Assembly: GCF_015354405.1 (NCBI RefSeq)
Contig: NZ_JADKYP010000064.1
Location: forward strand, 1-33,759
Direction: 5' to 3'
Length of the DNA: 33,759 bases
Origin: Nocardia sp. BSTN01
GTDB taxonomy: Bacteria; Actinomycetota; Actinomycetes; Mycobacteriales; Mycobacteriaceae
Shown: in pieces, positions 8,126 to 28,135 of the stretch
How positions within the stretch are numbered: the stretch's first letter is position 1
Layout: every line of letters starts with the position of its first letter
Made by a program: the position numbers and the translations under genes
The notes under the pieces: model-generated
Databases searched by the model: none
What the model was told of the DNA's origin: nothing
Seen by the model: only the letters and a program-made list of their open reading frames with translations

Positions 8126-11100
8126 GTGGGTATTACGTGGGCGCGTCGGCTGCCGGCCGGAATCGCCCTGATCGGAGTTACCGGACTGCTGCTGTGGGTC
8201 TGGCTCGCATCCGGATGGGAGACCATCGGAAAGGTCGCCGGCCTGATCACCGCGGTCATCGGCGTCCTGACCGCGGTGGCGGCACGATGGCCGGGACAGC
8301 GGACCACCGTCGATCCCGACGCCGCCTTGGAGGCGCTGGCCGGCGCGGTACGTGAGCAGTGGCAGGCGGAGGAGAGACTGCGCCGGCTGCCCGACCCGCG
8401 GCCGCTGCAACTGCACTGGGACAACTGCCGCCGAGACGGGGTGATGGATTACTGGGAAGTGATCCGCGGCGTCGAGGGCTGCGATACCCCGATCGAACTC
8501 GGCGGACGGCTCTGCGAGATCGTCGAGGTCTTCGAGCGGATCCCGGCACGGCGGCTGGTGGTCCTCGGCGAACCCGGATCGGGCAAATCCGTGCTCGCGA
8601 TGCAATTCACCCTGACCACGGTGCGACGGCGAAGCCCCGGCGATCCGGTCCCGGTTTTGATGCCGGTCGCGTCGTGGAATCCGGGCGAGGCGAGCCTGGC
8701 GGCATGGATGGAAGCGCGGTTGTGCGTGGACTATCCACTGCTCGGCGGCCGCGGCGCCTCGGGATCGACGCTGGCGCACGACCTGATCGCCCGGGGCCGG
8801 ATCTGGCCGGTTCTCGACGGCCTCGACGAAGTCCCCGAAGAGGTGCGTGCCGAGGTGATCACCGCATTGAACCGCACCCTCACCGTGGGCGACCCGCTCC
8901 TGCTGACCAGCCGCTCGGCGGAGTACGAGGCCGCGGTCGACGCTGCCGGGGACGTCGTGACGGCCGCCGCGGTGATCGAATTGACGCCGCTCGGACTCGA
9001 GGAGGTCGCGTCCTATCTGCGGGTCACGGCGGCGCCGCGGCGGGGACTGAACAAGTGGGATCCCGTCCTCACCCATCTCCACGAGCATCCGCAGGACCGC
9101 CTGGCCTCGGTATTGACGACACCGCTCATGACCTCGCTCGCGCGGGCTGCCTACAGTGACGGACGCGCCGACCCCAGCGAGCTCCTCGACGCCACCGCCT
9201 TCGATACCCGGGAGGCCGTCGAGACGCACCTCCTCGACCAGGCGATCCCCGCCGGCTATGCGAGCGAAAACCCGCCCGCGGGTCACAACGGCGACGCGGT
9301 GGTCGACGCCGAACGCCGACTGCGGCTCCTCGCCGGTGACCTCGACCGCTGTGGCGATCGTGAATTGGCCTGGTGGAAGCGGCATCTCGCCATTCCTTCG
9401 CCATTGTTCGCGGCGGTGTCGGGACTCGCGGTCGGGATGCTCGTGGTGGCAGTGACGCTCGCAGCGGCATGGCCGACCGACAGCTTCACATCGACCAGAT
9501 GGGGGGAGAGTGTCGAGTGGTCCGTTCGGCTGGGTTCGCTCGCCGCGGTCGTCATCGGCTTCTTCACCCTTGCAGACCTGGACCGCGAGAGACCGACATT
9601 CCGCCGCCAGGCTGGGCGCTTCACCATGGTGATGGCACTCGGTTCGATCGCCGCGCTCGCCGTCGGCGGGCTGACCTACCGGGCGTGGATCGACACGAGC
9701 TATCGGTCCGATATTGCCGACAGCGCAGTCGATACCGCGCAATACGTCGCGGAGAGCTTCTTGCTCATCGCCCTCGTCGTCGGTTTTCTGCGCGTACCCC
9801 CGGTACGGTCGCCCACCGCTGTCCTCCGAGAATCACCTCGAACCGCCGATACGACAGCCGGACGCTTCCGGGCGAGGATCGGGCCGATCGCGGGCACAGC
9901 GACCGTAGTCGGGATCGTTTTCGGGCTCGTCCATGCAATCGGCGTGTCGGCTGCGGGTGTTGTGGTACGGCACGAGTCCGTGCGGGACGGAGTTCTCGAC
10001 GTGCCGCGCGAGTGGTTGACGGTGGGACCGATCGCCGGGATCTGCTCGGCACTCGGCGTGCAGCTCGGCCGTCGCATTCTGCGGCCGGTTTTCGCAGCCG
10101 GCGCCGAACGCACGACGACGGGCCAGCCGCGGATTCTGGCAGCCGTCACGGTCACCGTGGTCGGGGTAGTCGCCGGCGCGTTCCTGCTACCGATCGTGAG
10201 AGACATGCTCGGTGATGGCAGGGCGGTGTGGGACTCGGCACTGAGCGCCGCGAAGGACGGTATCCGGCTCGGCATCGGCCCTGCGGTCATCCTCGCATTC
10301 CTGCCATGGGAAACCCGGCCGATGAGCCTGCAACTGCGGTTGCGAGGCAGGCTTCTGCGTTTGCTCATCGTTTCCGCGATCGCCGCGACAGTGGGAGCGG
10401 CGGCGCTCTGGTTCGCGGCAGACCTTCCCGATGCCGGGCAGAAGGCACGAGACTGTGTGCTCGTCGGTGCGCCATTCGGCCTCGCCGTCGGAATACTCGC
10501 CGTCGCGCTGGATCGGCCGGTCACCTTGGACCGGCCGATGGGACCACTGGCATCGCTACGCCTGGATCGACGAGCGGCCGTCATCTACAGCCTCGCCTAT
10601 GCGGTCGCCGCCGGCGCGGCCAATTGGCTCCACGCCGCGATCAGCTCGACGGCCGCGCTCGGCGCCCAGGACATCGGCGTCTTCGCCGTCGCGTTCTTCG
10701 TGATCTCGTATTTCCTCACGGCCTCCGGAAGACATGCGATCACATCCGTCTGGTTGTGGCTGGCCGGTCGAATGCCGTTGCGGGACATGGAATTCTATCG
10801 CACCGCCCATCGCCGCGGGGTGCTCCGGCAGGTCGGCAGCGTCTACCAATTCCGGCATGCCCTGCTGCAGGACCGGCTCGCCGCCGGCGCGCGACGGCCG
10901 TTCCGCCACAGTCGCGCGCACGCCGCACTCGTCCTCGCCGCCGCCGCGGCGCTGGTCCTTTCATCCGTCGCCGCGCTCGTGCACCACGCGTACGAACACC
11001 GGGAGTGGCTCGCGCGGAGCAATGCGGCCGTACTCCCCTTCGACGACGTCTCCCTACCCCTCGGTGTCGCGGTCGACCACGCCGGAACCCTGTACGTGGC

Positions 11101-11812
11101 CGGCACGAGGTTCGGGAGGAGCGCCAACCACGTCGACGACACCTCCGCCCTCGGCCGGTTGTGGCGATGGGAGAAGGGTGCGCCGAGACCGTCGATGCTC
11201 CCTCTCACCGACCTCGGACTGGCCTTCACACTGGCGATCGACCGAGCGAACAACCTCTACGTCGCCGACCGCGACAACCATCACGTTCTCGTATTGGGTC
11301 CTCGATCGATCGTCCCGGTCACATTGCCGTTCTCCGAACTGGTGGCGCCCATCGGCCTGGACGTCAGCGAATCGGGTGATGTGTATGTTTCCGACAATGG
11401 CACCGGTGTGGTCTGGAAGCTGCCGGCCGGGTCGACGACCGCGATCGCCCTTCCGTTCCCGAGACTCGACCATGTCACCGCTGTCGCGATCGACTCCGCG
11501 GGGACCGTGTACGCAAACGAAGCGGGCCGCAATCGCGTATTGAAGCTGCCCCTCGGATCGACTGTCCCGACGGCACTGCCGTTCGACGGCCTCGACAAAC
11601 CGAGCGGGATCGCCGTCGACTCCGAAGACACCCTCTATGTCTGCGACTGGAGCGGCCAAGTGATGAAACTTCGCGCCGGATCGGCTACGCCCGAGGTGGT
11701 GCACATGACCGGACTCAATTGGCCACAGTCCATCGCCGTCGACGATGCGCACAACCTGTACGTCACGAACCCCTACGACAACCGCGTACTCGAACTACCT
11801 TCCCCTCGATGA
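8126..11812 (+). CDS. Membrane NACHT NTPase with C-terminal PknD-like NHL beta-propeller
   Basis: A 1228-residue multidomain protein. In order: two N-terminal membrane segments (about 11-28 and 37-53); a NACHT STAND-type NTPase with Walker A GEPGSGKS (148-155), Walker B VLDGLDE (229-235) and the LLLTSRS sensor (258-264); roughly a dozen membrane helices (426-866); a YQFRHALLQDRLA segment (907-919) seen in actinobacterial membrane NACHT proteins; one more helix (932-953); and six NHL-type repeats (968-1226), each like LPF..L..P.GVAVD..GTLYV, very close to the sensor propeller of PknD. The last helix would place the propeller outside the cell, with the NTPase in the cytosol. NACHT proteins often act in antiphage defence or regulation. 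Start GTG 8126 with GAGGG about 10 bases upstream. A phospholipase D-family gene follows. Confidence 0.88.
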   Translation: MGITWARRLPAGIALIGVTGLLLWVWLASGWETIGKVAGLITAVIGVLTAVAARWPGQRTTVDPDAALEALAGAVREQWQAEERLRRLPDPRPLQLHWDNCRRDGVMDYWEVIRGVEGCDTPIELGGRLCEIVEVFERIPARRLVVLGEPGSGKSVLAMQFTLTTVRRRSPGDPVPVLMPVASWNPGEASLAAWMEARLCVDYPLLGGRGASGSTLAHDLIARGRIWPVLDGLDEVPEEVRAEVITALNRTLTVGDPLLLTSRSAEYEAAVDAAGDVVTAAAVIELTPLGLEEVASYLRVTAAPRRGLNKWDPVLTHLHEHPQDRLASVLTTPLMTSLARAAYSDGRADPSELLDATAFDTREAVETHLLDQAIPAGYASENPPAGHNGDAVVDAERRLRLLAGDLDRCGDRELAWWKRHLAIPSPLFAAVSGLAVGMLVVAVTLAAAWPTDSFTSTRWGESVEWSVRLGSLAAVVIGFFTLADLDRERPTFRRQAGRFTMVMALGSIAALAVGGLTYRAWIDTSYRSDIADSAVDTAQYVAESFLLIALVVGFLRVPPVRSPTAVLRESPRTADTTAGRFRARIGPIAGTATVVGIVFGLVHAIGVSAAGVVVRHESVRDGVLDVPREWLTVGPIAGICSALGVQLGRRILRPVFAAGAERTTTGQPRILAAVTVTVVGVVAGAFLLPIVRDMLGDGRAVWDSALSAAKDGIRLGIGPAVILAFLPWETRPMSLQLRLRGRLLRLLIVSAIAATVGAAALWFAADLPDAGQKARDCVLVGAPFGLAVGILAVALDRPVTLDRPMGPLASLRLDRRAAVIYSLAYAVAAGAANWLHAAISSTAALGAQDIGVFAVAFFVISYFLTASGRHAITSVWLWLAGRMPLRDMEFYRTAHRRGVLRQVGSVYQFRHALLQDRLAAGARRPFRHSRAHAALVLAAAAALVLSSVAALVHHAYEHREWLARSNAAVLPFDDVSLPLGVAVDHAGTLYVAGTRFGRSANHVDDTSALGRLWRWEKGAPRPSMLPLTDLGLAFTLAIDRANNLYVADRDNHHVLVLGPRSIVPVTLPFSELVAPIGLDVSESGDVYVSDNGTGVVWKLPAGSTTAIALPFPRLDHVTAVAIDSAGTVYANEAGRNRVLKLPLGSTVPTALPFDGLDKPSGIAVDSEDTLYVCDWSGQVMKLRAGSATPEVVHMTGLNWPQSIAVDDAHNLYVTNPYDNRVLELPSPR

Positions 11813-12196: not shown

Positions 12197-13861
12197 ATGC
12201 TGGTACGAATTCATCACAACGGCGACGACGCACTGATCGCATGGAAACCCGACGGGTTCATTCCGGGGTGCCGCGGGTTCGCGCTCATGCGTCGACGCAA
12301 CGGCATCGAAGAGGTCGTGAGCACGTGGGTCGGCTTCACCGACGACCAGGCCACCGCCGGCGAACGTCGCGCGTCCACGAACTGGCCGATTCAGAAATAT
12401 CAATGGATCGACTACATGGCCGACCCCGGTGACAAGGTCGCATATCGGGTCCTACCGATGGTCGGCGACGACAAGGCGAACCTGCGCCCCGCCCCGGACG
12501 CCGCGAGCGACTGGACCGACGAGATCACCCTGACGCATATGGCATCGCCCGATATCGAGGCGGTATTCAACCGCGGAATCGTTGCCGCACAATGGGTCTC
12601 GCGCCGACTGGGCGTCACCGGCCACGAACTGCAGAACGCGAAGCTGGAAACCGTGCTCGAGACCACCGGCGATCCACTCCGCAACTACCTCGCCGGACCA
12701 CTGGGCACGCGGTTGTTCGCGCTGCTCGACACGGCCGCCCGGAACGGATCCGATGTGTACGCGGCGCTGTACGAACTCGACGATCCTCAGCTGGAATCCG
12801 CCCTGGCCCGGCTGGGCAACCACGCGCACGTCGTGCTGGCGAACGGGAGCGTGAAGAAGAAGGGCGACGATCAGAACGCCGACGCGCGCGACAAGTTGCG
12901 TGGGCAGATCGACCTACACGATCGGATGTGTTCGCCACGTGCTCTGGGACACAACAAGTTCCTGGTCGTCTGCGATCAGGAATCCACCCCGCGATGGGTG
13001 TGGACCGGCAGCCAGAATTGGACCATGACCGGGTTGTGCACCCAGGCCAACAACTCACTCCTGATCGAGGACCCGGACCTCGCCGAGCAGTATCGGCACC
13101 AGTGGGACCTGCTCGAGCAGGCGGGCGACGCCACACCGGCGAGCCTGCGCGCCGACAACAGCACACCCCGCGACGAGGCGGTGGATCCGGCCCGGGTGCG
13201 ACTGTGGTTCACCCCGACCGTCGGACAGGTCGACCTCGACGACGCACGCACGCTCATCACGGGCGCGGAGACCGGCATCCTCTTCCTGATGTTCAATCCG
13301 GGACCCAAGGACACCCTGCTCAATACGATCCTCGACACGGCTCGCGCGGGACGACCCGACGACCGGCGTCTCTACATTCGCGGCGTCCTCAACCAGGACC
13401 CGAGCACCACGGCCAACCCGGTGCACCTGTTCGATCAGGAGAACTCGGAGAAGGCCGATTTCGACGTCGTCCTCCCCGCGGCCATCGACGCGCCGACCAT
13501 GTTCTTCCGGGAAGAACTGAAGAAGCTGGATCGAGCATTCGCGATGGTGCACAGCAAGGTCATCGTGATCGACCCCCTCAGGGCGAACCCTGTCGTGCTC
13601 ACCGGCTCGCACAACCTGGGTCCGAAAGCCAGCGGGACCAACGACGAGAATCTGCTCCTCATTCGCGATACGCCGGGTCTGGCCGACGCGTACGCGACGA
13701 ACATCATGTCCGTCTACAACCAGTACCGGTGGCGCTTTCGCCGGCACCTGCAACCACCGAATCTCCGATGGCAGGGCCTGATCGACAGCGACTCCTGGCA
13801 GAGCTGGTATCTGAAACCCGACAGCCCTCAGATCCGCGAGATCGACTTCTGGGTCGCATAG
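12197..13861 (+). CDS. Phospholipase D-family protein with two HKD motifs
   Basis: A 554-residue protein with two complete PLD catalytic half-sites. Motif 1 is HNKFLVVCD (His252, Lys254, Asp260) followed by TGSQN (270-274); motif 2 is HSKVIVID (His452, Lys454, Asp459) followed by TGSHN (469-473). Two active half-sites in one chain is the arrangement of phospholipases, cardiolipin synthases and some nucleases of this superfamily. Residues 1-115 look like an all-beta, fibronectin-like module and no signal peptide is visible, so a cytosolic location is likely. The ATG at 12197 has AAGGG upstream. It follows the NACHT gene on the same strand after 384 bp, which suggests but does not prove joint function. 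Its substrate (lipid or nucleic acid) is unknown. Confidence 0.88.
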   Translation: MLVRIHHNGDDALIAWKPDGFIPGCRGFALMRRRNGIEEVVSTWVGFTDDQATAGERRASTNWPIQKYQWIDYMADPGDKVAYRVLPMVGDDKANLRPAPDAASDWTDEITLTHMASPDIEAVFNRGIVAAQWVSRRLGVTGHELQNAKLETVLETTGDPLRNYLAGPLGTRLFALLDTAARNGSDVYAALYELDDPQLESALARLGNHAHVVLANGSVKKKGDDQNADARDKLRGQIDLHDRMCSPRALGHNKFLVVCDQESTPRWVWTGSQNWTMTGLCTQANNSLLIEDPDLAEQYRHQWDLLEQAGDATPASLRADNSTPRDEAVDPARVRLWFTPTVGQVDLDDARTLITGAETGILFLMFNPGPKDTLLNTILDTARAGRPDDRRLYIRGVLNQDPSTTANPVHLFDQENSEKADFDVVLPAAIDAPTMFFREELKKLDRAFAMVHSKVIVIDPLRANPVVLTGSHNLGPKASGTNDENLLLIRDTPGLADAYATNIMSVYNQYRWRFRRHLQPPNLRWQGLIDSDSWQSWYLKPDSPQIREIDFWVA

Positions 13862-14057
13862 CCGGCGGAGCTCGAACCGACTGTGCCCGCACCGTTTTCG
13901 GAGCTCGGGTTCTATCTGCTCGCCGGAGCGGGTGGCGAGGGGCCCGCCATCTTGGTCCAGGAAGCCCGCCGAGGCGAGGAGTTCGGTCTGGGCTGTGCTG
14001 CAACGCTTTCGCGACGACCCGATCGTGCAGTCGCGACGGCCGTGCCCGGCCACTCGG

Positions 14058-19645: not shown

Positions 19646-20070
19646 GGCTACTACCGATTCTCAACATCGATGGACTGTTGTAGTTCGGAAATAACCGGCT
19701 TTCGGATCGTCAAACAACAGTCTCGGCAGGACACTTCGAACACGCGGCTCCGCCCGGTCGCCGGAACCGGCCCAGCTCAGCCACTTTCGGATGAGGCCGG
19801 AGCCCAGTGCGGGCCCTCGACACAACCGCGTGCGCCATACTCCCGGCGCCACCGGCGAGGGATGGGGCACGACGGTCGCCCCTCGGGCCGGCCGGCGGAA
19901 TCGCGAGCGATCTTCGGCTGTCCATCGCGACAGACCACTGATCGGATATGCGAGAAAATATCGAGCAATTTATCGGCAAATGCGAAATATTGCGAAACGC
20001 CTCCGGTATCGGAGTAAAACTCTACAGTCGATATGTCCAGCAGAGCCGGTCGCGGGTCTTGGAGGCTCGT
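19646..20070. other. 425-bp upstream region of the molybdenum hydroxylase operon
   Basis: No gene found. The open frame beginning at 19948 is the untranslated extension of the FAD-subunit gene. The part 19940-20040 is markedly AT-rich for this genome (for example AAAATAT, AATTTAT and AAATATTG tracts) and contains an inverted repeat (20001-20014) and GCAAT...ATTGC arms (19965-19993), so it is probably the operon promoter. Confidence 0.55.
20001..20014. promoter_or_regulatory. Inverted repeat upstream of the hydroxylase operon
   Basis: CTCCG-GTAT-CGGAG, perfect 5-bp arms, 56 bases upstream of the FAD-subunit start and next to the AT-rich promoter block. A candidate operator; the regulator could be the PucR-type protein at 28136, which is inference. 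Confidence 0.4.
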
Positions 20071-20892
20071 ATGGATCTGAACACCGTCGAGGACGTCATT
20101 CGCCGGCCCTCGGCCCGACCGGGTTCCGACTGGCACGCCGGAGATGCGTGGCTGGCCGGGGGGACGTGGTTGTTCTCCGAACCGCAGCCCACGGTGCGCC
20201 GGCTCGTCGATCTCACCGCGCTCGACTGGCCCACCCTGGTGCCCACCGACCAGGGCCTGGAAATCGGCGCGACGTGCACGATCAGGGAGCTGCACGAGTT
20301 CGCGCCGCCGCAACACTGGTCCGCAGGCAGTCTGCTGCGAACCAGCTGCGAGGCGTTCCTGGCGTCGTTCAAGATATGGAACGCCGCGACAGTGGGCGGC
20401 AACATCTGCATGTCGCTGCCCGCCGGTCCGATGATCACCCTGAGCGTGGCACTCGAGGCGACCTATCGGTTGTGGGCCACGGACGGGACGGAACGAACGA
20501 TCGCGGCCGAGAATTTCGTGGGCGGCGATCATCTGAATGCGCTGGGACCGGGCGAAATACTGCGCAGCATTCATATCCCTGCCGACGCGTTACACAAATC
20601 GTACGCACACCGGCGATTCACGCTGACCAAGCTGGGCCGGTCCACGATATTCATGGTCGCCACCCGGACGCCGGATACCGACGACCTGTCTCTCAGCATC
20701 ACAGCGGCAACCGCGTATCCGATTGTCCTGCATTTCGATTCCGCACCCGACGCCGACGCCGTGCGGGACCGTATCGATGCGATCCCGGCGGACGTATGGT
20801 TCGCCGACGCCAACGGCACACCGGAGCACCGCAGACACCTCGCCCGGCACTACGCCGAGGAACTCCGGGCTGAACTCGGAGGCGCGAGATGA
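20071..20892 (+). CDS. Molybdenum hydroxylase FAD-binding subunit (CoxM/XdhB type)
   Basis: The medium, FAD-binding subunit of a xanthine dehydrogenase-type molybdenum hydroxylase (273 residues; family 260-300). Visible motifs are AGGTWLFSE, the counterpart of the AGGTDL flavin site, and NAATVGGNICMSLPAGP, the TxGGN FAD/cluster-contact region. It passes electrons from the 2Fe-2S clusters to an acceptor. I start at the ATG at 20071, where GGAGG lies 5 bases upstream, rather than at an upstream ATG in the AT-rich leader. The stop overlaps the next gene's start (ATGA), so the two subunits are made together. Confidence 0.9.
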   Translation: MDLNTVEDVIRRPSARPGSDWHAGDAWLAGGTWLFSEPQPTVRRLVDLTALDWPTLVPTDQGLEIGATCTIRELHEFAPPQHWSAGSLLRTSCEAFLASFKIWNAATVGGNICMSLPAGPMITLSVALEATYRLWATDGTERTIAAENFVGGDHLNALGPGEILRSIHIPADALHKSYAHRRFTLTKLGRSTIFMVATRTPDTDDLSLSITAATAYPIVLHFDSAPDADAVRDRIDAIPADVWFADANGTPEHRRHLARHYAEELRAELGGAR

Positions 20893-23603
20893 GCTTCGTC
20901 GTCAACGGCAAGACGTTTTCCCAGCAGCCGCGGCCCGGACAGTGCCTGCGGACCTTCCTGCGGCACCTGGGCTGGTTCGGGGTCAAGAAGGGCTGCGACG
21001 CCGGCGATTGCGGCGCCTGCACCGTCTGGCTCGACGGGCGTCCCGTGCACAGTTGCATCACACCCGCGTTCCGCGCCGAGGGACACGAGGTGACGACCAT
21101 CGAGGGGCTCGGAACGCCCGAGAATCCGCATCCGATGCAGCGGCAGTTCCGCGACGCCCCCGGATTCCAGTGCGGCTTCTGCACCGCCGGCATGATCATG
21201 ACCGCGGCGGCCCTGACCGACGAACAGAAGCAGGACCTGCCGCATGCGCTGAAGGGAAACCTCTGCCGCTGCACCGGTTATCGGGCCGTCGAGGACGCGA
21301 TCAACGGCGTCTGCGCGATCGAGGTGGCGGAACCGGGCGCGGTGATCGGCACCAGCGTCGCCGCACCGGCCGCCACCGGCGTGGTGACCGGCCGCGCCGA
21401 GTACACGATGGATACCGAACCCGAGGGCATGCTTCATCTGAAAGTGCTGCACTCCCCCCACGCCCACGCGCGCATCGTCTCCGTCGACAAGTCCGCGGCG
21501 CTGGCCGTGCCGGGCGTACAACGCGTCTACACCTGGGAAGACGTGCCGCGCAAGCTGTTCACCACCGCCGTCCACACCGACCATCTCGTCGACCCCGACG
21601 ACACCTACATCCTGGACGACGTCGTGCGTTTCGTCGGCCAGCGGGTCGTCGCGGTCCTCGCCGATTCGATCGCCGCGGCGGAAGAGGGCTGCCGCCGGGT
21701 CGTCGTCGAGTACGAGGTGCTGCCCGCGGTGTTCGATCCCGAGCAGGCGATGGCCTTCGGCGCGCCCCAACTGCACGGCTCCGACGATCCGTTCGTCCAG
21801 GACCCGGTCCACAACATCCTCATCGAGCTGCACGGCGAAATCGGTGATACCACACAGGGTTTCGCCGAGGCCGATGTCGTTCACGAAGGCACGTACTTCT
21901 CACCGCGGGTGCAGCACGTGCATCTGGAGACGCACGGATCGATCGCCTGGATGGACGCGGGCCGGCTGCATGTGCGGACCAGTTCGCAATCTCCGTGGGT
22001 CGCCAAGGGCAAACTGGCCCACCTGTTCGACCTGCGCCCCGACCAGATCCGGGTCTTCTGCGAACGCGTCGGCGGCGGTTTCGGCGGCAAACAGGAGGTG
22101 CTCAGCGAAGACCTGGTCGCGCTGGCAACCTTGGACACCGGTCGCCCGACCTGCCTGGAGTACACCCGTGAGGAGGAGTTCACCAGCGCCACGACGCGGC
22201 ATCCGATGAAGATCACCGTGAAGCTGGGAGCGCGCGCCGACGGCACCCTGACCGCGATCCAGTTCCGCAACATCTCCAATACCGGCGCGTACGGCAATCA
22301 CGGCGGCGAGACGCTGTTCGCCGGGGGCTCGGCCGTCGCCGCCTACCGCTGCCCAAACAAGAAGTTCGACGGCTACGTGGTCTACACCAACACCCTGCCC
22401 AGTGGCGGCTTGCGCGGCTACGGCATGACCCAGCCGGTCTTCGCGATGGAATCGGCGATGCACGAACTGGCCGTCGCCCTCGGCATGGATCCACTGGAAT
22501 TGCGGCGCCGCAACATCGTTCGTCCGGGCGACGCGCTGCTGTCCATCGACGACGAGGCCGACGACGTCGCCTTCACCGAGGACGGGCTGGGCACGTGTAT
22601 CGACCGCGTCGACGCCGCCCTGCGCGCGCACCCGGATGGGCAGGCGCTGGGCCCGGACTGGTCGATCGGCGTCGGCACCGCCGCCTCGATACACGAGACC
22701 GCACCGCCGACCGAACACATCTCGGTCGGGCTCGCCACACTCGGTGACGACGGATTCTACGAAATCGCGGTGGGCACAGTCGAATTCGGGGAGGGCACCT
22801 CCACCGCGCACGTCCAGATCGCGGCAGCCGAGCTGGGAACCACGCCGGCGCGGATCCGGCTCGTCCAATCCGATACCGACAGGACCGGTTTCGACACCGG
22901 CGCCTTCGCCAGCGCCGGGCTTTTCGTGGCCGGCAACGCCGTTGCGCGATCCGCGGCGGCATTGCGCGACCGGATCCTGCGCTTCGCCTCCGCCCACACC
23001 GGTGCCGCCCTGGAATCGTGTGCCATGGACGACGACGCCGTGCGTTGCGGTGACACTCGCGTCCCGCTGGCCGACCTCGCGGTGGCCGCCCGGAGCCGGG
23101 GCGCGCGATTGACCGAATCGCGCAAGGCGTACGGCTCGCCGCGCAGCCTGTCCTGCAACGCACACGGATTCCGGATCGCGGTGCACCGCGTGACCGGCGA
23201 GATCCGGATCCTCTACAGCGTGCAGGCGATCGACGCCGGGGTGGTGATCAACCCGGAACAGGTCCGCGGACAGATCGAAGGCGGTGTGGTCCAGGGCGTC
23301 GGTTTCGTGCTGACCGAACACCATCTGATGACCGACGGCGTCGTCACCAATCCGACGCTGCGCAACTACCGCATCCCCACCTACGCCGACGCTCCGCGCA
23401 CCGAGGTGATCCTGGTCGGCTCGACCGATTCGGCGGGCCCGGTGCGGGCCAAGGGCATCGCCGAATCCTGCGTCAATCCCGTGGCGCCCGCACTGGCCAA
23501 CGCGGTGCAGGACGCGACCGGCATCCGCTACCGCGAGCTACCGCTGACGCCCGACCGGATCTTCCCGGCGCTGCGGACATCCCGGCTGACCTCGACCGGC
23601 TGA
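20889..23603 (+). CDS. Fused 2Fe-2S plus molybdopterin subunit of a molybdenum hydroxylase
   Basis: A 904-residue protein joining what are usually separate small and large subunits. Residues 1-140 carry both 2Fe-2S clusters (Cys36, 41, 44, 56 and Cys95, 98, 126, 128). Residues about 165-900 are the aldehyde oxidase/xanthine dehydrogenase molybdopterin domain, with GGGFGGK (395-401), GLRGYG (507-512) and the active-site Glu859 in AKGIAES. Enzymes of this family hydroxylate purines, aldehydes or N-heterocycles. The split (FAD alone, FeS plus Mo fused) resembles the YgfM/XdhD layout of enterobacteria, but here all cluster cysteines are present. Substrate is not decided by sequence; the deaminase downstream favours a purine or other nitrogen heterocycle. 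Confidence 0.92.
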   Translation: MSFVVNGKTFSQQPRPGQCLRTFLRHLGWFGVKKGCDAGDCGACTVWLDGRPVHSCITPAFRAEGHEVTTIEGLGTPENPHPMQRQFRDAPGFQCGFCTAGMIMTAAALTDEQKQDLPHALKGNLCRCTGYRAVEDAINGVCAIEVAEPGAVIGTSVAAPAATGVVTGRAEYTMDTEPEGMLHLKVLHSPHAHARIVSVDKSAALAVPGVQRVYTWEDVPRKLFTTAVHTDHLVDPDDTYILDDVVRFVGQRVVAVLADSIAAAEEGCRRVVVEYEVLPAVFDPEQAMAFGAPQLHGSDDPFVQDPVHNILIELHGEIGDTTQGFAEADVVHEGTYFSPRVQHVHLETHGSIAWMDAGRLHVRTSSQSPWVAKGKLAHLFDLRPDQIRVFCERVGGGFGGKQEVLSEDLVALATLDTGRPTCLEYTREEEFTSATTRHPMKITVKLGARADGTLTAIQFRNISNTGAYGNHGGETLFAGGSAVAAYRCPNKKFDGYVVYTNTLPSGGLRGYGMTQPVFAMESAMHELAVALGMDPLELRRRNIVRPGDALLSIDDEADDVAFTEDGLGTCIDRVDAALRAHPDGQALGPDWSIGVGTAASIHETAPPTEHISVGLATLGDDGFYEIAVGTVEFGEGTSTAHVQIAAAELGTTPARIRLVQSDTDRTGFDTGAFASAGLFVAGNAVARSAAALRDRILRFASAHTGAALESCAMDDDAVRCGDTRVPLADLAVAARSRGARLTESRKAYGSPRSLSCNAHGFRIAVHRVTGEIRILYSVQAIDAGVVINPEQVRGQIEGGVVQGVGFVLTEHHLMTDGVVTNPTLRNYRIPTYADAPRTEVILVGSTDSAGPVRAKGIAESCVNPVAPALANAVQDATGIRYRELPLTPDRIFPALRTSRLTSTG

Positions 23604-23617
23604 GCCTGGAGACCACG

Positions 23618-24586
23618 ATGCCCCGCGAGACGCCGGTCGGCCACGCCGCCACCGTCATCATCGGTGAGAAGGTTCGTCCCGGCTGTGAGGAGGCTTTCCT
23701 GGCCTGGCAGCACGGGCTCAACAGCATGGCGTCGCAATATCCGGGATTCATTGCCGCGGAGATCGATCCGCCCACCCACCCGCAGGCGCACTGGTCGCTG
23801 ATCTACCGCTTCGACTCGATTCCGAATCTGCGCGCGTGGATCAACAGCGCCACCCGCCAGGACAGCCTCGCCGAGGGGCGGCGCTATCTCGACGGCCCGC
23901 CCACGCAGCAGATCGTCACCGGCGCGGCCGCGCCGCCCGACACCCTCGTCACGGCGGTGGTGACCCATCGAGTGGTTCCCGAGCAGATCGACGAGTTCCT
24001 GGCGTGGCAGGAACGACTTCGCCACGCGGAGAACAGGTTTCCCGGCTTCCGCGGTTCGGAGATCTTCCGGCCGATCGAGGGCGTGCAGGACGAGTGGACG
24101 ATGCTCTACCGCTACGACAGCGCCGCCGACCTGGATCGCTGGCTGACCTCCGGCGAGCGGCAGCGACTGCTCGACGAGGGAAAACGGTTCAGCGACTTCC
24201 GATTACGCACGATCGACAACTCGTTCGGCAGCTGGTTCGCCTTCGACGAGGAGGGTCCCGCCCACGCACCGTCGCAGACGAAGACGTCGATCGCGGTGTG
24301 GGTCGGGTTGTATCCGACGGTCGTGCTGCTCTCGCTGGCGTTGGCGCCCGCGGGAATGCCGCTGTGGCTGGGCATGCTGGTCGGAAATCTGTTGTCCAGC
24401 TTCGTCATGACGTTCGTGACGATGCCGCGCTATGTGAATCCGTTGCTCGAACGCTGGCTGCAGCCGGCCCCCGGGTCGCCGCGCAAGGCGATCGAGATCC
24501 GCGGCGCCATGCTCATCACCGCCGTGATGGCGTTCTGGACGGTGCTGTTCTGGCTGGTGACCACCGTGTTCTGGCATCTGCCGTGA
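23618..24586 (+). CDS. Tandem antibiotic-biosynthesis-monooxygenase (ABM) domain membrane protein
   Basis: A 322-residue protein with two ABM (dimeric alpha-beta barrel) domains in tandem, about 10-95 and 108-200; the second repeats the pattern of the first (EEAFLAWQ.. / DEFLAWQERL, YPGF / FPGF, SLIYRFDS / TMLYRYDS). Three membrane helices follow (about 225-243, 247-268, 297-318). Such fused ABM-membrane proteins occur in bacteria but have no established role. The gene begins 14 bases after the hydroxylase stop, so it belongs to the operon; it could handle a reactive product at the membrane or tether a complex, both speculative. Confidence 0.85.
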   Translation: MPRETPVGHAATVIIGEKVRPGCEEAFLAWQHGLNSMASQYPGFIAAEIDPPTHPQAHWSLIYRFDSIPNLRAWINSATRQDSLAEGRRYLDGPPTQQIVTGAAAPPDTLVTAVVTHRVVPEQIDEFLAWQERLRHAENRFPGFRGSEIFRPIEGVQDEWTMLYRYDSAADLDRWLTSGERQRLLDEGKRFSDFRLRTIDNSFGSWFAFDEEGPAHAPSQTKTSIAVWVGLYPTVVLLSLALAPAGMPLWLGMLVGNLLSSFVMTFVTMPRYVNPLLERWLQPAPGSPRKAIEIRGAMLITAVMAFWTVLFWLVTTVFWHLP

Positions 24587-26222: not shown

Positions 26223-27338
26223 TCACGGCGTGTGGTCGTGATGGATCCGTCCTCCGAGTTCGGTCAGCGGGTGACCGGCGCCGCCGTGGGTGCGCATGAT
26301 GATCTCCGCGACGATCGATACCGCCGTTTCCTGTGGGGTGCGAGCGCCCAGGTCGAGACCGAGCGGACTGGCGAACCGGCACAATTCGATCTCGGTGAGT
26401 CCGGCCGCGCGCAATCGGCGCAGCCGATCGTCGTGGGTGCGCCGGGATCCCATCGCGCCGACGTAACCGAGTGCCGGAAGCCGCAATGCCACCCGCAGCA
26501 CAGGGACGTCGAACTTCGGGTCGTGGGTCAGGACGCAGACGACGGTCCGGCCGTCGAGGGTGTTTCGCCGCGCCTGCGCGGTGAGGTAGCGATCCGGCCA
26601 GTCCACGACGACCTCGTCCGCGGCCGGAAAACGGTCCGCGGTCGCGAACCTCGGGCGGGCGTCGCAGACCGTCACCCGGTAGCCGATCAGCGCGCCCTGC
26701 TGTGCCAGCGCGGCGGCGAAGTCGACGGCGCCGAAGATCAGCAGCCGCGGGCGGGGAGCCAAGGTGTTCACGAAGACGTCCGCGCCGGCCTCCAGCGGCG
26801 CGCAGCCGATCAGCTCGGCATGGTCGGCTGCGAGCAGTTCGCGGGCCCGCTCGGTCACGGCCGCGTCGGCTCGGGCGGATCCGAGCGAGCCGTGGACCGT
26901 ATCCGGGGTGATGATCAGCCGCCGGCCCGGCCGCGCGCAGTCCGAATTCGCGACGACGGTGGCGGTCGCGACCGGGCGGTCCGCGGCGACCGCGGCGATC
27001 ATCACCGGCAGGTGTGGGCACGTCGTTCGGGATATCGGCTCGGCGAAGATGTCGATCTCACCGCCACAGGTGAGCGCGGTGCCGAACAGTTCATCGGTAT
27101 CGACTCCGTAGCTGTGCCGCCGGGGCCGCCCGGTCCGCGCCACCTCGGCGGCCAGCTCGTAGACGGCCGCGTCCACGCAGCCGCCGGAGACCGATCCGGC
27201 CACGGTGCCGTCGGGGGCCACGATCATCGCCGCGCCCACCGGCCGCGGCGCCGATCCCCGGGTGCGGACCACCGTGGCGACACCGGCGGTGCCACCGGAT
27301 CGCCAGACGGAAGTCAGTGCGGCCAGGACGTCGCGCAC
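26223..27338 (-). CDS. XdhC/CoxI-family molybdenum hydroxylase maturation factor
   Basis: XdhC-type proteins bind molybdenum cofactor and insert the sulfido ligand into xanthine dehydrogenase-family enzymes. The product is 371 residues, as usual. The N-domain has ATVVRTRGSAPRPVGAAM and GSVSGGCVDAAV with its conserved Cys; the C-domain Rossmann motif LLIFGAVDFAAAL and the family tail YVGAMGSRRTHDDRLRRL are clear. The start is the GTG at 27338; the frame remains open to 27941 but upstream residues are unrelated. It converges on the deaminase gene (21 bases between stops), so its promoter is separate from that of the hydroxylase operon that it serves. Confidence 0.9.
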   Translation of the reverse strand: MRDVLAALTSVWRSGGTAGVATVVRTRGSAPRPVGAAMIVAPDGTVAGSVSGGCVDAAVYELAAEVARTGRPRRHSYGVDTDELFGTALTCGGEIDIFAEPISRTTCPHLPVMIAAVAADRPVATATVVANSDCARPGRRLIITPDTVHGSLGSARADAAVTERARELLAADHAELIGCAPLEAGADVFVNTLAPRPRLLIFGAVDFAAALAQQGALIGYRVTVCDARPRFATADRFPAADEVVVDWPDRYLTAQARRNTLDGRTVVCVLTHDPKFDVPVLRVALRLPALGYVGAMGSRRTHDDRLRRLRAAGLTEIELCRFASPLGLDLGARTPQETAVSIVAEIIMRTHGGAGHPLTELGGRIHHDHTP

Positions 27339-27386
27339 CGGCGTTCGAGCCCTTCGGTCGTGGCCGCGGCGTTCGCCTGCTGTAAC

Positions 27387-27405
27387 CGCATCTTTGAATG
27401 ATGCG
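27387..27405. promoter_or_regulatory. Inverted repeat upstream of xdhC-type gene
   Basis: CGCATC-TTTGAAT-GATGCG has perfect 6-bp arms around an AT-rich centre, 49 bases upstream of the GTG start of the XdhC-type gene. Suits a repressor operator or promoter element. The 215-bp interval to tatA shows nothing else. Confidence 0.45.
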
Positions 27406-27553
27406 CGTTCCCCGGCAGTCGCGCGGCCACAATGGGATGCCGAAAACGTGCTGTCGAGAATGCGCCCGCCGGCCGCGGCGAACGACCGCCTACGCCTGGC
27501 CGGCAGCTCGGCTCCCGGTATGCGCCCGTCACCGGCGTGCGCCGGACCAGGTG

Positions 27554-27835
27554 TCAGCTCCGGTGACGATCCTCGACGGCCGACGACGAGGGAGTCGCCG
27601 GTCGCCCGGGCGGCAGCGGTGCCGCGGGCGCCGCCCGGTGACCCGCATCCGGGACACTCGCGGATGCGGTGTTCGGCGAGCCGGAATCCTCGGAGTGCAT
27701 CTCGCTCATTTCGCTTTTGAAGATGCGCAGCGAGCGACCGAGGCCGCGGGCGGTGTCGGGCAGGCGTTTGGCGCCGAACAACACCACGACAACCAGTGCG
27801 ATGATGAGCCAGTGGGTCGGACTCAACGAACCCAT
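27554..27835 (-). CDS. tatA: Sec-independent (Tat) translocase subunit TatA
   Basis: A 93-residue TatA. One N-terminal membrane helix ([20 protein letters not shown]) is followed by the hinge and amphipathic helix [20 protein letters not shown], then a disordered Pro/Ser-rich tail: the standard TatA build and length. TatA oligomers form the channel of the twin-arginine pathway for folded proteins. The ATG at 27835 is preceded by CGGAGG. TatB and TatC genes are not adjacent, so this is either the housekeeping tatA away from tatC or a second copy. Confidence 0.93.
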
Positions 27836-28135
27836 CGGAACCTCCGTTCGTGCGCCGGAGCCGCTCGGACGGTGACCGACGGCCCGGCGGATTCCACCGG
27901 CGAGACCATTCGTCCCCGGCGTCGGAATTGGACGAGTTCATAATAACTTGCCACGCCCCAGAAGAAAGCGAATTGCGCCTTCACCTGGCTTGATGAAGCT
28001 TGCCGAAGCTACCTAAGAATGTGAATGTGAAGTAACATACTCGCCGTTGCCGACGTGGCGGTCACCGGGTCGGCAGCGACAGAGTCGAAGAGCCGGTCGC
28101 GTGTGATGTGCACCGGAACGCAGGTGGAGGTTGCT
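27836..28135. other. 300-bp divergent region between tatA and PucR-type regulator
   Basis: No gene seen. A TATTAT on the minus strand (27945-27940) is a possible -10 box for tatA, about 105 bases from its start, without a clear -35. GAAGCT occurs twice (27995-28010). The in-frame GTG/ATG codons from 28055 upstream of the regulator have no ribosome site. Confidence 0.5.

Follow-up and report, generated by a model that had tools for sequence, protein, structure and literature searches.

A Nocardia gene joining a NACHT domain, a multi-span membrane belt, and a PknD-like NHL propeller in one predicted transmembrane chain

Introduction

NLR-type NACHT proteins are usually viewed as cytosolic sentinels. 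In the available text of PMC12169576, the bacterial NACHT (bNACHT) proteins studied carry N-terminal nucleases or short C-terminal domains, and the words transmembrane, extracellular, and propeller are absent from the main text of that paper. PMC3322341 describes PknD as a kinase whose sensor is extracellular, and the same source reports an interaction of the PknD sensor domain with laminin. Here, we analyze a gene of Nocardia sp. BSTN01 that combines features of both kinds of protein. It lies at positions 8126–11812 of a 33,759-nucleotide stretch of DNA (assembly GCF_015354405.1, contig NZ_JADKYP010000064.1), referred to as the window, and encodes a NACHT domain, a belt of predicted membrane spans, and a PknD-like NHL propeller in a single chain.

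With bNACHT and other NLR-related proteins, the Nocardia protein shares a NACHT NTPase with Walker motifs, and its family shares swappable N- and C-terminal modules. With the PknD-type Ser/Thr receptor kinases (Mycobacterium tuberculosis PknD sensor, PDB entry 1rwi), it shares the succession of an Arg-rich juxtamembrane stretch, a single span, and an NHL propeller of six repeats; in place of the kinase domain, which it lacks, it has a NACHT switch and a belt of 12 spans. Domains predicted to lie outside or in the periplasm have been described in other NTP-dependent or conflict proteins: DGR 3 target 2, a NACHT-CLec protein in which both parts are predicted to be periplasmic (PMC10907252); GAP1-N2 conflict proteins with a transmembrane segment and a cadherin domain (PMC7159879); and TRADD-N systems, in which a second component, likened to EACC1, has CHASE2 (PMC8195603). 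As far as the available text of these sources describes them, all three differ from the Nocardia protein in sensor and in organization.

NACHT domains, the PknD sensor, swappable conflict-system modules, and conflict proteins with parts predicted to be extracellular or periplasmic are already known. A reading of the DNA made from the sequence alone (the sequence-only reading) named no described example of the combination in this gene. We found no description of a NACHT-belt-NHL protein among the open-licence papers listed (titles and the starts of abstracts), which is weak evidence of absence. The core of the design proved to be common, with WD40 and other domains at the same joint in some members.

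Results

Domain organization of the Nocardia protein

The reading frame, on the forward strand, has 1228 codons with a GTG start and no internal stops. Its parts are as follows.

8126..11812, forward strand: the whole gene, NACHT, membrane belt, tail, span, and NHL propeller, 1228 residues (frame, Pfam, hydropathy, orthologues)
8150..8281, forward strand: N-terminal two-span hairpin, residues 9–52 (hydropathy)
8549..9022, forward strand: NACHT domain, residues 142–299 (Pfam PF05729)
8567..8590, forward strand: Walker A, GEPGSGKS, residues 148–155 (sequence)
8813..8830, forward strand: Walker B, LDGLDE, residues 230–235 (sequence)
9404..10729, forward strand: membrane belt of 12 predicted spans, residues 427–868 (hydropathy, loop charges)
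10730..10924, forward strand: conserved, positively charged tail with RGVLRQVGSVYQFRH, predicted cytosolic, residues 869–933 (family comparison, lowest dN/dS of the chain)
10925..10981, forward strand: final membrane span, residues 934–952, aligned to the PknD span (hydropathy, alignment)
11033..11809, forward strand: six-repeat NHL propeller of the PknD-sensor type, predicted outside, residues 970–1228 (Pfam, structure-sequence match, repeats by eye, alignment)

The sequence-only reading had described a NACHT domain, about a dozen membrane helices, and six NHL repeats in this chain, and each of these parts was recovered. In the profile search that it proposed, NACHT scored 36.1 bits against a gathering cut-off of 26.7 (E = 7.1e-9), and NHL scored 56 bits against a cut-off of 20 (E = 2.7e-15, four scored stretches). 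Walker A and Walker B are intact and, like a sensor-1-like LTSR motif, identical in all five proteins compared (the Nocardia protein and its four orthologues). Hydropathy analysis placed two spans ahead of NACHT (residues 9–52), 12 behind it (427–868), and one at 934–952; "about a dozen" therefore fits the belt, with two more spans before NACHT and one before the propeller. Two weaker peaks over the same threshold, at 273–291 within NACHT and 1062–1080 within the propeller, are read as buried parts of these domains.

No kinase family is among the 11 Pfam matches of the protein, indicating that it is not a PknD receptor kinase. The Pfam scan also found no domain ahead of NACHT and no DNA-binding domain. 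A fusion artefact or mis-assembly was considered and ruled out, as the identical frame is present in the assemblies of four other species.

The propeller resembles the PknD sensor

By eye, residues 970 to 1228 divide into six repeats, each about 42 residues long and the first with an insert, so that by sequence the domain has the six repeats of a PknD-type NHL propeller. Its best match among solved natural proteins, judged by their names, is the PknD propeller 1rwi (E = 5.8e-49), bearing out the PknD likeness noted at first reading. Designed "Pizza" chains, also judged by name, outscore 1rwi; we take these chains to derive from PknD.

The likeness is not confined to the propeller. MAFFT aligned the Arg-rich stretch, the span, and the propeller with those of all 10 PknD-type proteins compared, and in one of the 10 the BLAST match itself extends through the Arg-rich stretch and the span. 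Four kinase matches in the search of genus genomes start at residues 915–924. HRD and DFG kinase motifs are present in 25 of the 26 propeller proteins of a propeller tree, in which the five Nocardia propellers form one clade with a long stem (1.23) and unsure placement. Given that stem and placement, an origin as a recent copy of a local PknD is unsupported.

Among PADLOC defense models, the protein matched only the profile PD-T4-6, in four stretches (E = 1.1e-27) and not over the whole profile; no Avs or bNACHT antiphage system model was matched. The best stretch covers profile positions 294–435 of 452 and falls on residues 915–1105 (window 10868–11440), that is, on the span and the propeller, and PADLOC-type automated defense annotation could therefore mislabel the gene. 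The NCBIfam model EruA scored 20.5 bits, far below its cut-off of 1000.

Sidedness of the membrane parts

The belt loops of the Nocardia protein alternate strictly in charge: the net charge is −1 or −2 in outside loops and between +2 and +4 in inside loops, and it reaches +10 in the tail. All six inside loops, counting the tail as one, are net positive and all six outside loops net negative; if sides were dealt randomly, the chance of so clean a split would be 1 in 924. Some outside loops of the four orthologues are at 0 or +1, but each inside loop is still more positive than all outside loops of its own protein. Furthermore, in 10 of 10 proteins (the Nocardia protein plus nine relatives in which only one early span follows the tail), the tail has a net charge of +6 to +14, and the 20 residues past the span have one of 0 or below. 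The span at 934–952 has a mean hydropathy of 2.56, the second highest in the chain.

The NACHT domain needs ATP and must be inside; the even number of belt spans then places the tail inside as well, and the span at 934–952 places the propeller outside. We strongly infer a cytosolic location for NACHT and the tail and an outside location for the propeller. The charge pattern and the homology to PknD both support such a receptor, and the predicted single-chain transmembrane architecture with an outside propeller, as first proposed, is well supported at the level of sequence.

Conservation and distribution

The full chain is present in 5 of 151 Nocardia genomes, counting the source genome. The orthologues are those of N. 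kruczakiae (94% identity), N. aobensis (92%), N. cerradoensis (92%), and N. mikamii (88%). The ratio of nonsynonymous to synonymous substitution rates (dN/dS) over the chain averages 0.31 in pairwise comparisons of the five species, being lowest in the tail (0.13), followed by NACHT (0.21), the propeller (0.35), and the belt (0.44). These values indicate purifying selection on the chain. The chain is more than a chance product, since four additional Nocardia species retain all of it at 88–94% identity and with this dN/dS.

A query of 349 residues covering tail, span, and propeller found full-length matches in 3 of 401 family genomes, all within the five-species group. Outside the source genome, the full chain was not found among the matches listed for 397 genomes of the order, 394 of the class, and 396 of the phylum. 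All of these genome searches score few candidates per genome, two in the order, class, and phylum searches, so that a distant case could be missed. Across all frames gathered for comparison, a NACHT core and a PknD-like propeller co-occur solely in the five orthologues. The survey of NACHT proteins ending in NHL repeats that the sequence-only reading called for thus found the NHL form in five Nocardia genomes only, within the searches made. No phage homologue was found in 50,697 records. Among plasmids, 72 records had a match, and none of the 72 covers 80% of the query in one place.

A family of NACHT-belt-tail proteins with exchanged modules

The core of NACHT, membrane belt, and conserved tail is a common actinomycete family. 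Its signature, under which the family is named here, is a NACHT domain, several spans, and then the tail RGVLRQxGxVYQFRH; the Nocardia protein carries all three, with a tail score of 78.9 bits. Entries annotated "NACHT domain-containing protein" on Streptomyces plasmids have the same core and tail. Relatives were collected as the loci around the top NACHT matches, namely 48 of the first 50 from the class search and all of the first 50 from the order search, one being in both; two class matches were left out, one with an in-frame stop and one with a short frame. This gave 96 loci with 100 NACHT frames, 95 with the tail and 5 without. The 95 are a sample ranked by similarity to the Nocardia protein, not a census.

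At the survey threshold, the belt has 11–12 spans in the Nocardia protein and a modal number of 6 in the sample. Two spans within 160 residues ahead of NACHT, as in the Nocardia protein, occur in 29 of the 95 relatives. Most relatives differ from the Nocardia protein in ending soon after the tail: the frame stops within 120 residues of it in 82 of 95, and within 40 in 81 of those 82. In the other 13 it continues for at least 120 residues, and nine of these have a span in the first 60 residues of the extension (a single span in seven, two spans in one, four in one).

Ten extensions, taken in part from the sample and in part for their length, were scanned with Pfam. WD40 exceeded its cut-off at four loci, L081, L118, L119, and L106. 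At the first three, the WD40 match lies past the span that follows the tail. The last, from the same genus, has four spans and then a strong WD40 propeller past the tail, so that this WD40 could lie on either side of the membrane. The L128 extension has masked letters, a weak propeller match, and an adenovirus fibre family match just over the cut-off, taken as chance. Matches to DUF3558 and DUF3060 remained below threshold in L092 and L097; L088 and L139 gave no Pfam match, and L158 only a chance-level one. In L139 and L152, the tail is followed by a span together with a Cys-containing stretch about 150–170 residues long. Further relatives have long extensions without an early span, some of them TPR-like by eye, which are presumably cytosolic.

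The other end of the chain varies as well. Among 10 relatives with long N-termini, Pfam found helix-turn-helix (HTH) domains in five, BTAD with Trans_reg_C (SARP-type) in two, Trypsin_2 in one, and nothing in two. SARP-type N-termini precede the NACHT-belt core in L113 and L180 (by Pfam) and in L102 (by eye), fusions that have the design of membrane-anchored transcription factors. L125 has a trypsin-like N-terminus on the core, and L085 and L086 each have two NACHT-core matches within one chain. A PADLOC scan of nine full-length relatives returned partial matches only, in three of the nine.

In a quick tree of the core, the five NHL forms make one clade and L081, L119, and L128 another, with L118, L088, and L106 apart. 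The backbone is weak: five changes of label are needed, of which the starred branches force only one, counted against the labelled rows with 101 unlabelled rows left out. NHL and WD40 are different propeller families, which argues for at least two gains, and a propeller plug-in was likely gained repeatedly. Judged from these comparisons, the Nocardia gene is the version with NHL of a plug-in design that recurs among its relatives, several of which have other domains at the same joint.

We tentatively suggest, with somewhat less than even confidence, that single-chain transmembrane STAND receptors form a class in actinomycetes. In such a class the switch would be cytosolic and the signal would be transmitted by a multi-span belt and a conserved tail, while the outside sensor (NHL, WD40, or other envelope domains) and the inside output (HTH, SARP, protease, or two-span hairpin) would be exchanged like cassettes. 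This family-wide pattern is a more interesting claim than the single NHL gene; if true, these receptors would be surface-facing counterparts of cytosolic NLRs. A lineage with an outside sensor and an inside ATP switch would show how the STAND switch can be coupled to surface signals within one polypeptide. With the joint fixed and the outside domain differing from one member to the next, chimeras of different members could probe how a signal passes across the belt.

Discussion

Proposed mechanism

We consider it an evenly balanced proposition that the Nocardia protein is a one-chain transmembrane STAND receptor in which the propeller senses, the tail releases NACHT, and the membrane parts rearrange. 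The propeller would sense a surface or envelope cue, such as a soluble ligand, the state of the wall, or an attacker. The signal would pass through the span at 934–952 into the tail, which would unlock NACHT for ATP binding and clustering. The first proposal of an outside ligand signaling to an inside oligomerizing NTPase accordingly keeps the standing of an inference. Since no Pfam domain lies ahead of NACHT, the likeliest output would be a rearrangement of the N-terminal hairpin and the belt that alters membrane permeability.

Several observations weigh against this reading. The number of belt spans counted by hydropathy is odd (5 or 7) in four of the nine single-early-span relatives, so that parity is not clean across the family. 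A profile of the tail matched no NLR structure (five weak, chance-level chains), no Pfam domain covers the tail, and 47 tails gave only single stray Pfam matches; a role of the tail as relay is accordingly a guess. Where a neighboring gene matches a family, that family is metabolic or regulatory, and a defense island is unsupported. The tail was also considered as the winged-helix end of an NLR, a resemblance that was dropped given the same profile result. A weak PADLOC match to PDC-M07B occurs in 6 of 47 tails (best E = 0.0012).

Alternative explanations

It is very improbable that the propeller is cytosolic and residues 934–952 are not a true span. Hydropathy is a prediction and not an experiment, and WD40-NACHT proteins elsewhere are cytosolic; the hydropathy of this span, the charge pattern in 10 of 10 proteins, and the alignment to the PknD span all speak against it. 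Propellers are generic binding scaffolds, and instead of sensing, the domain could hold the NACHT protein in position as an adhesin or wall anchor, a use for which the reported interaction of the PknD sensor with laminin (PMC3322341) offers a parallel. We regard this as quite unlikely, because the domains found at this joint in other members are unrelated to one another in type, as would be expected of swapped sensors more than of anchors. An output in gene regulation or envelope homeostasis rather than defense, with a PknD-like surface-state sensor and a STAND switch replacing the kinase, is unlikely but deserves some weight. It would agree with the HTH and SARP-type domains in five and two of the 10 long N-termini, with the kinase-plus-sensor plan of PknD as described in PMC3322341, and with neighbors of ordinary metabolism. 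The Nocardia protein has no DNA-binding domain of its own, however, and one of the 10 long N-termini is trypsin-like. Trypsin-like domains are common in conflict systems.

The remaining alternative keeps the same receptor and moves the output to the product of the next gene, a possible partner of the NACHT protein:

12197..13861, forward strand: PLD-superfamily protein (Pfam PLDc_2, E = 2.1e-16; HNK and HSK motifs; adjacent in five species)

An activated NACHT cluster would here recruit or license a cytosolic PLD nuclease or phospholipase. The gene adjoins the NACHT gene on the same strand in 5 of 5 species, and in the four species aligned to the window the alignment breaks just past it, at 13867–13877, and resumes further on. 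The protein has two HxK motifs (HNK and HSK) and no secretion signal visible by eye. It weakly matches Nuc 1byr (E = 0.0067) and DrmC (PADLOC, E = 0.00096). Nonetheless, 384 bases separate the two frames, and five close species may share a neighbor by descent alone. A long PLD match occurs in only 3 of 40 relatives searched (the source genome, G040, and G092), and the 14 kb fetched around the PLD gene of G092 (L201) contain no NACHT-core frame. No PLD relative was found at the other NACHT loci examined, whose flanks were short. We therefore think this output improbable, and the receptor that acts through its own membrane parts remains our preferred reading.

Neighboring genes

Upstream and divergent from the NACHT gene lie genes for an acyl-CoA dehydrogenase and an FAD-binding protein; the acyl-CoA dehydrogenase gene has a DNA match in 31 of the 40 relatives searched. 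Among 10 neighboring proteins scanned with PADLOC, the PLD protein alone was matched, weakly. Downstream are an NmrA-like gene and a xanthine-dehydrogenase-like cluster, with xanthine-dehydrogenase/aldehyde-oxidoreductase-like genes at window positions 19948–24586 and 26223–27941 and an XdhC-like maturation factor nearby.

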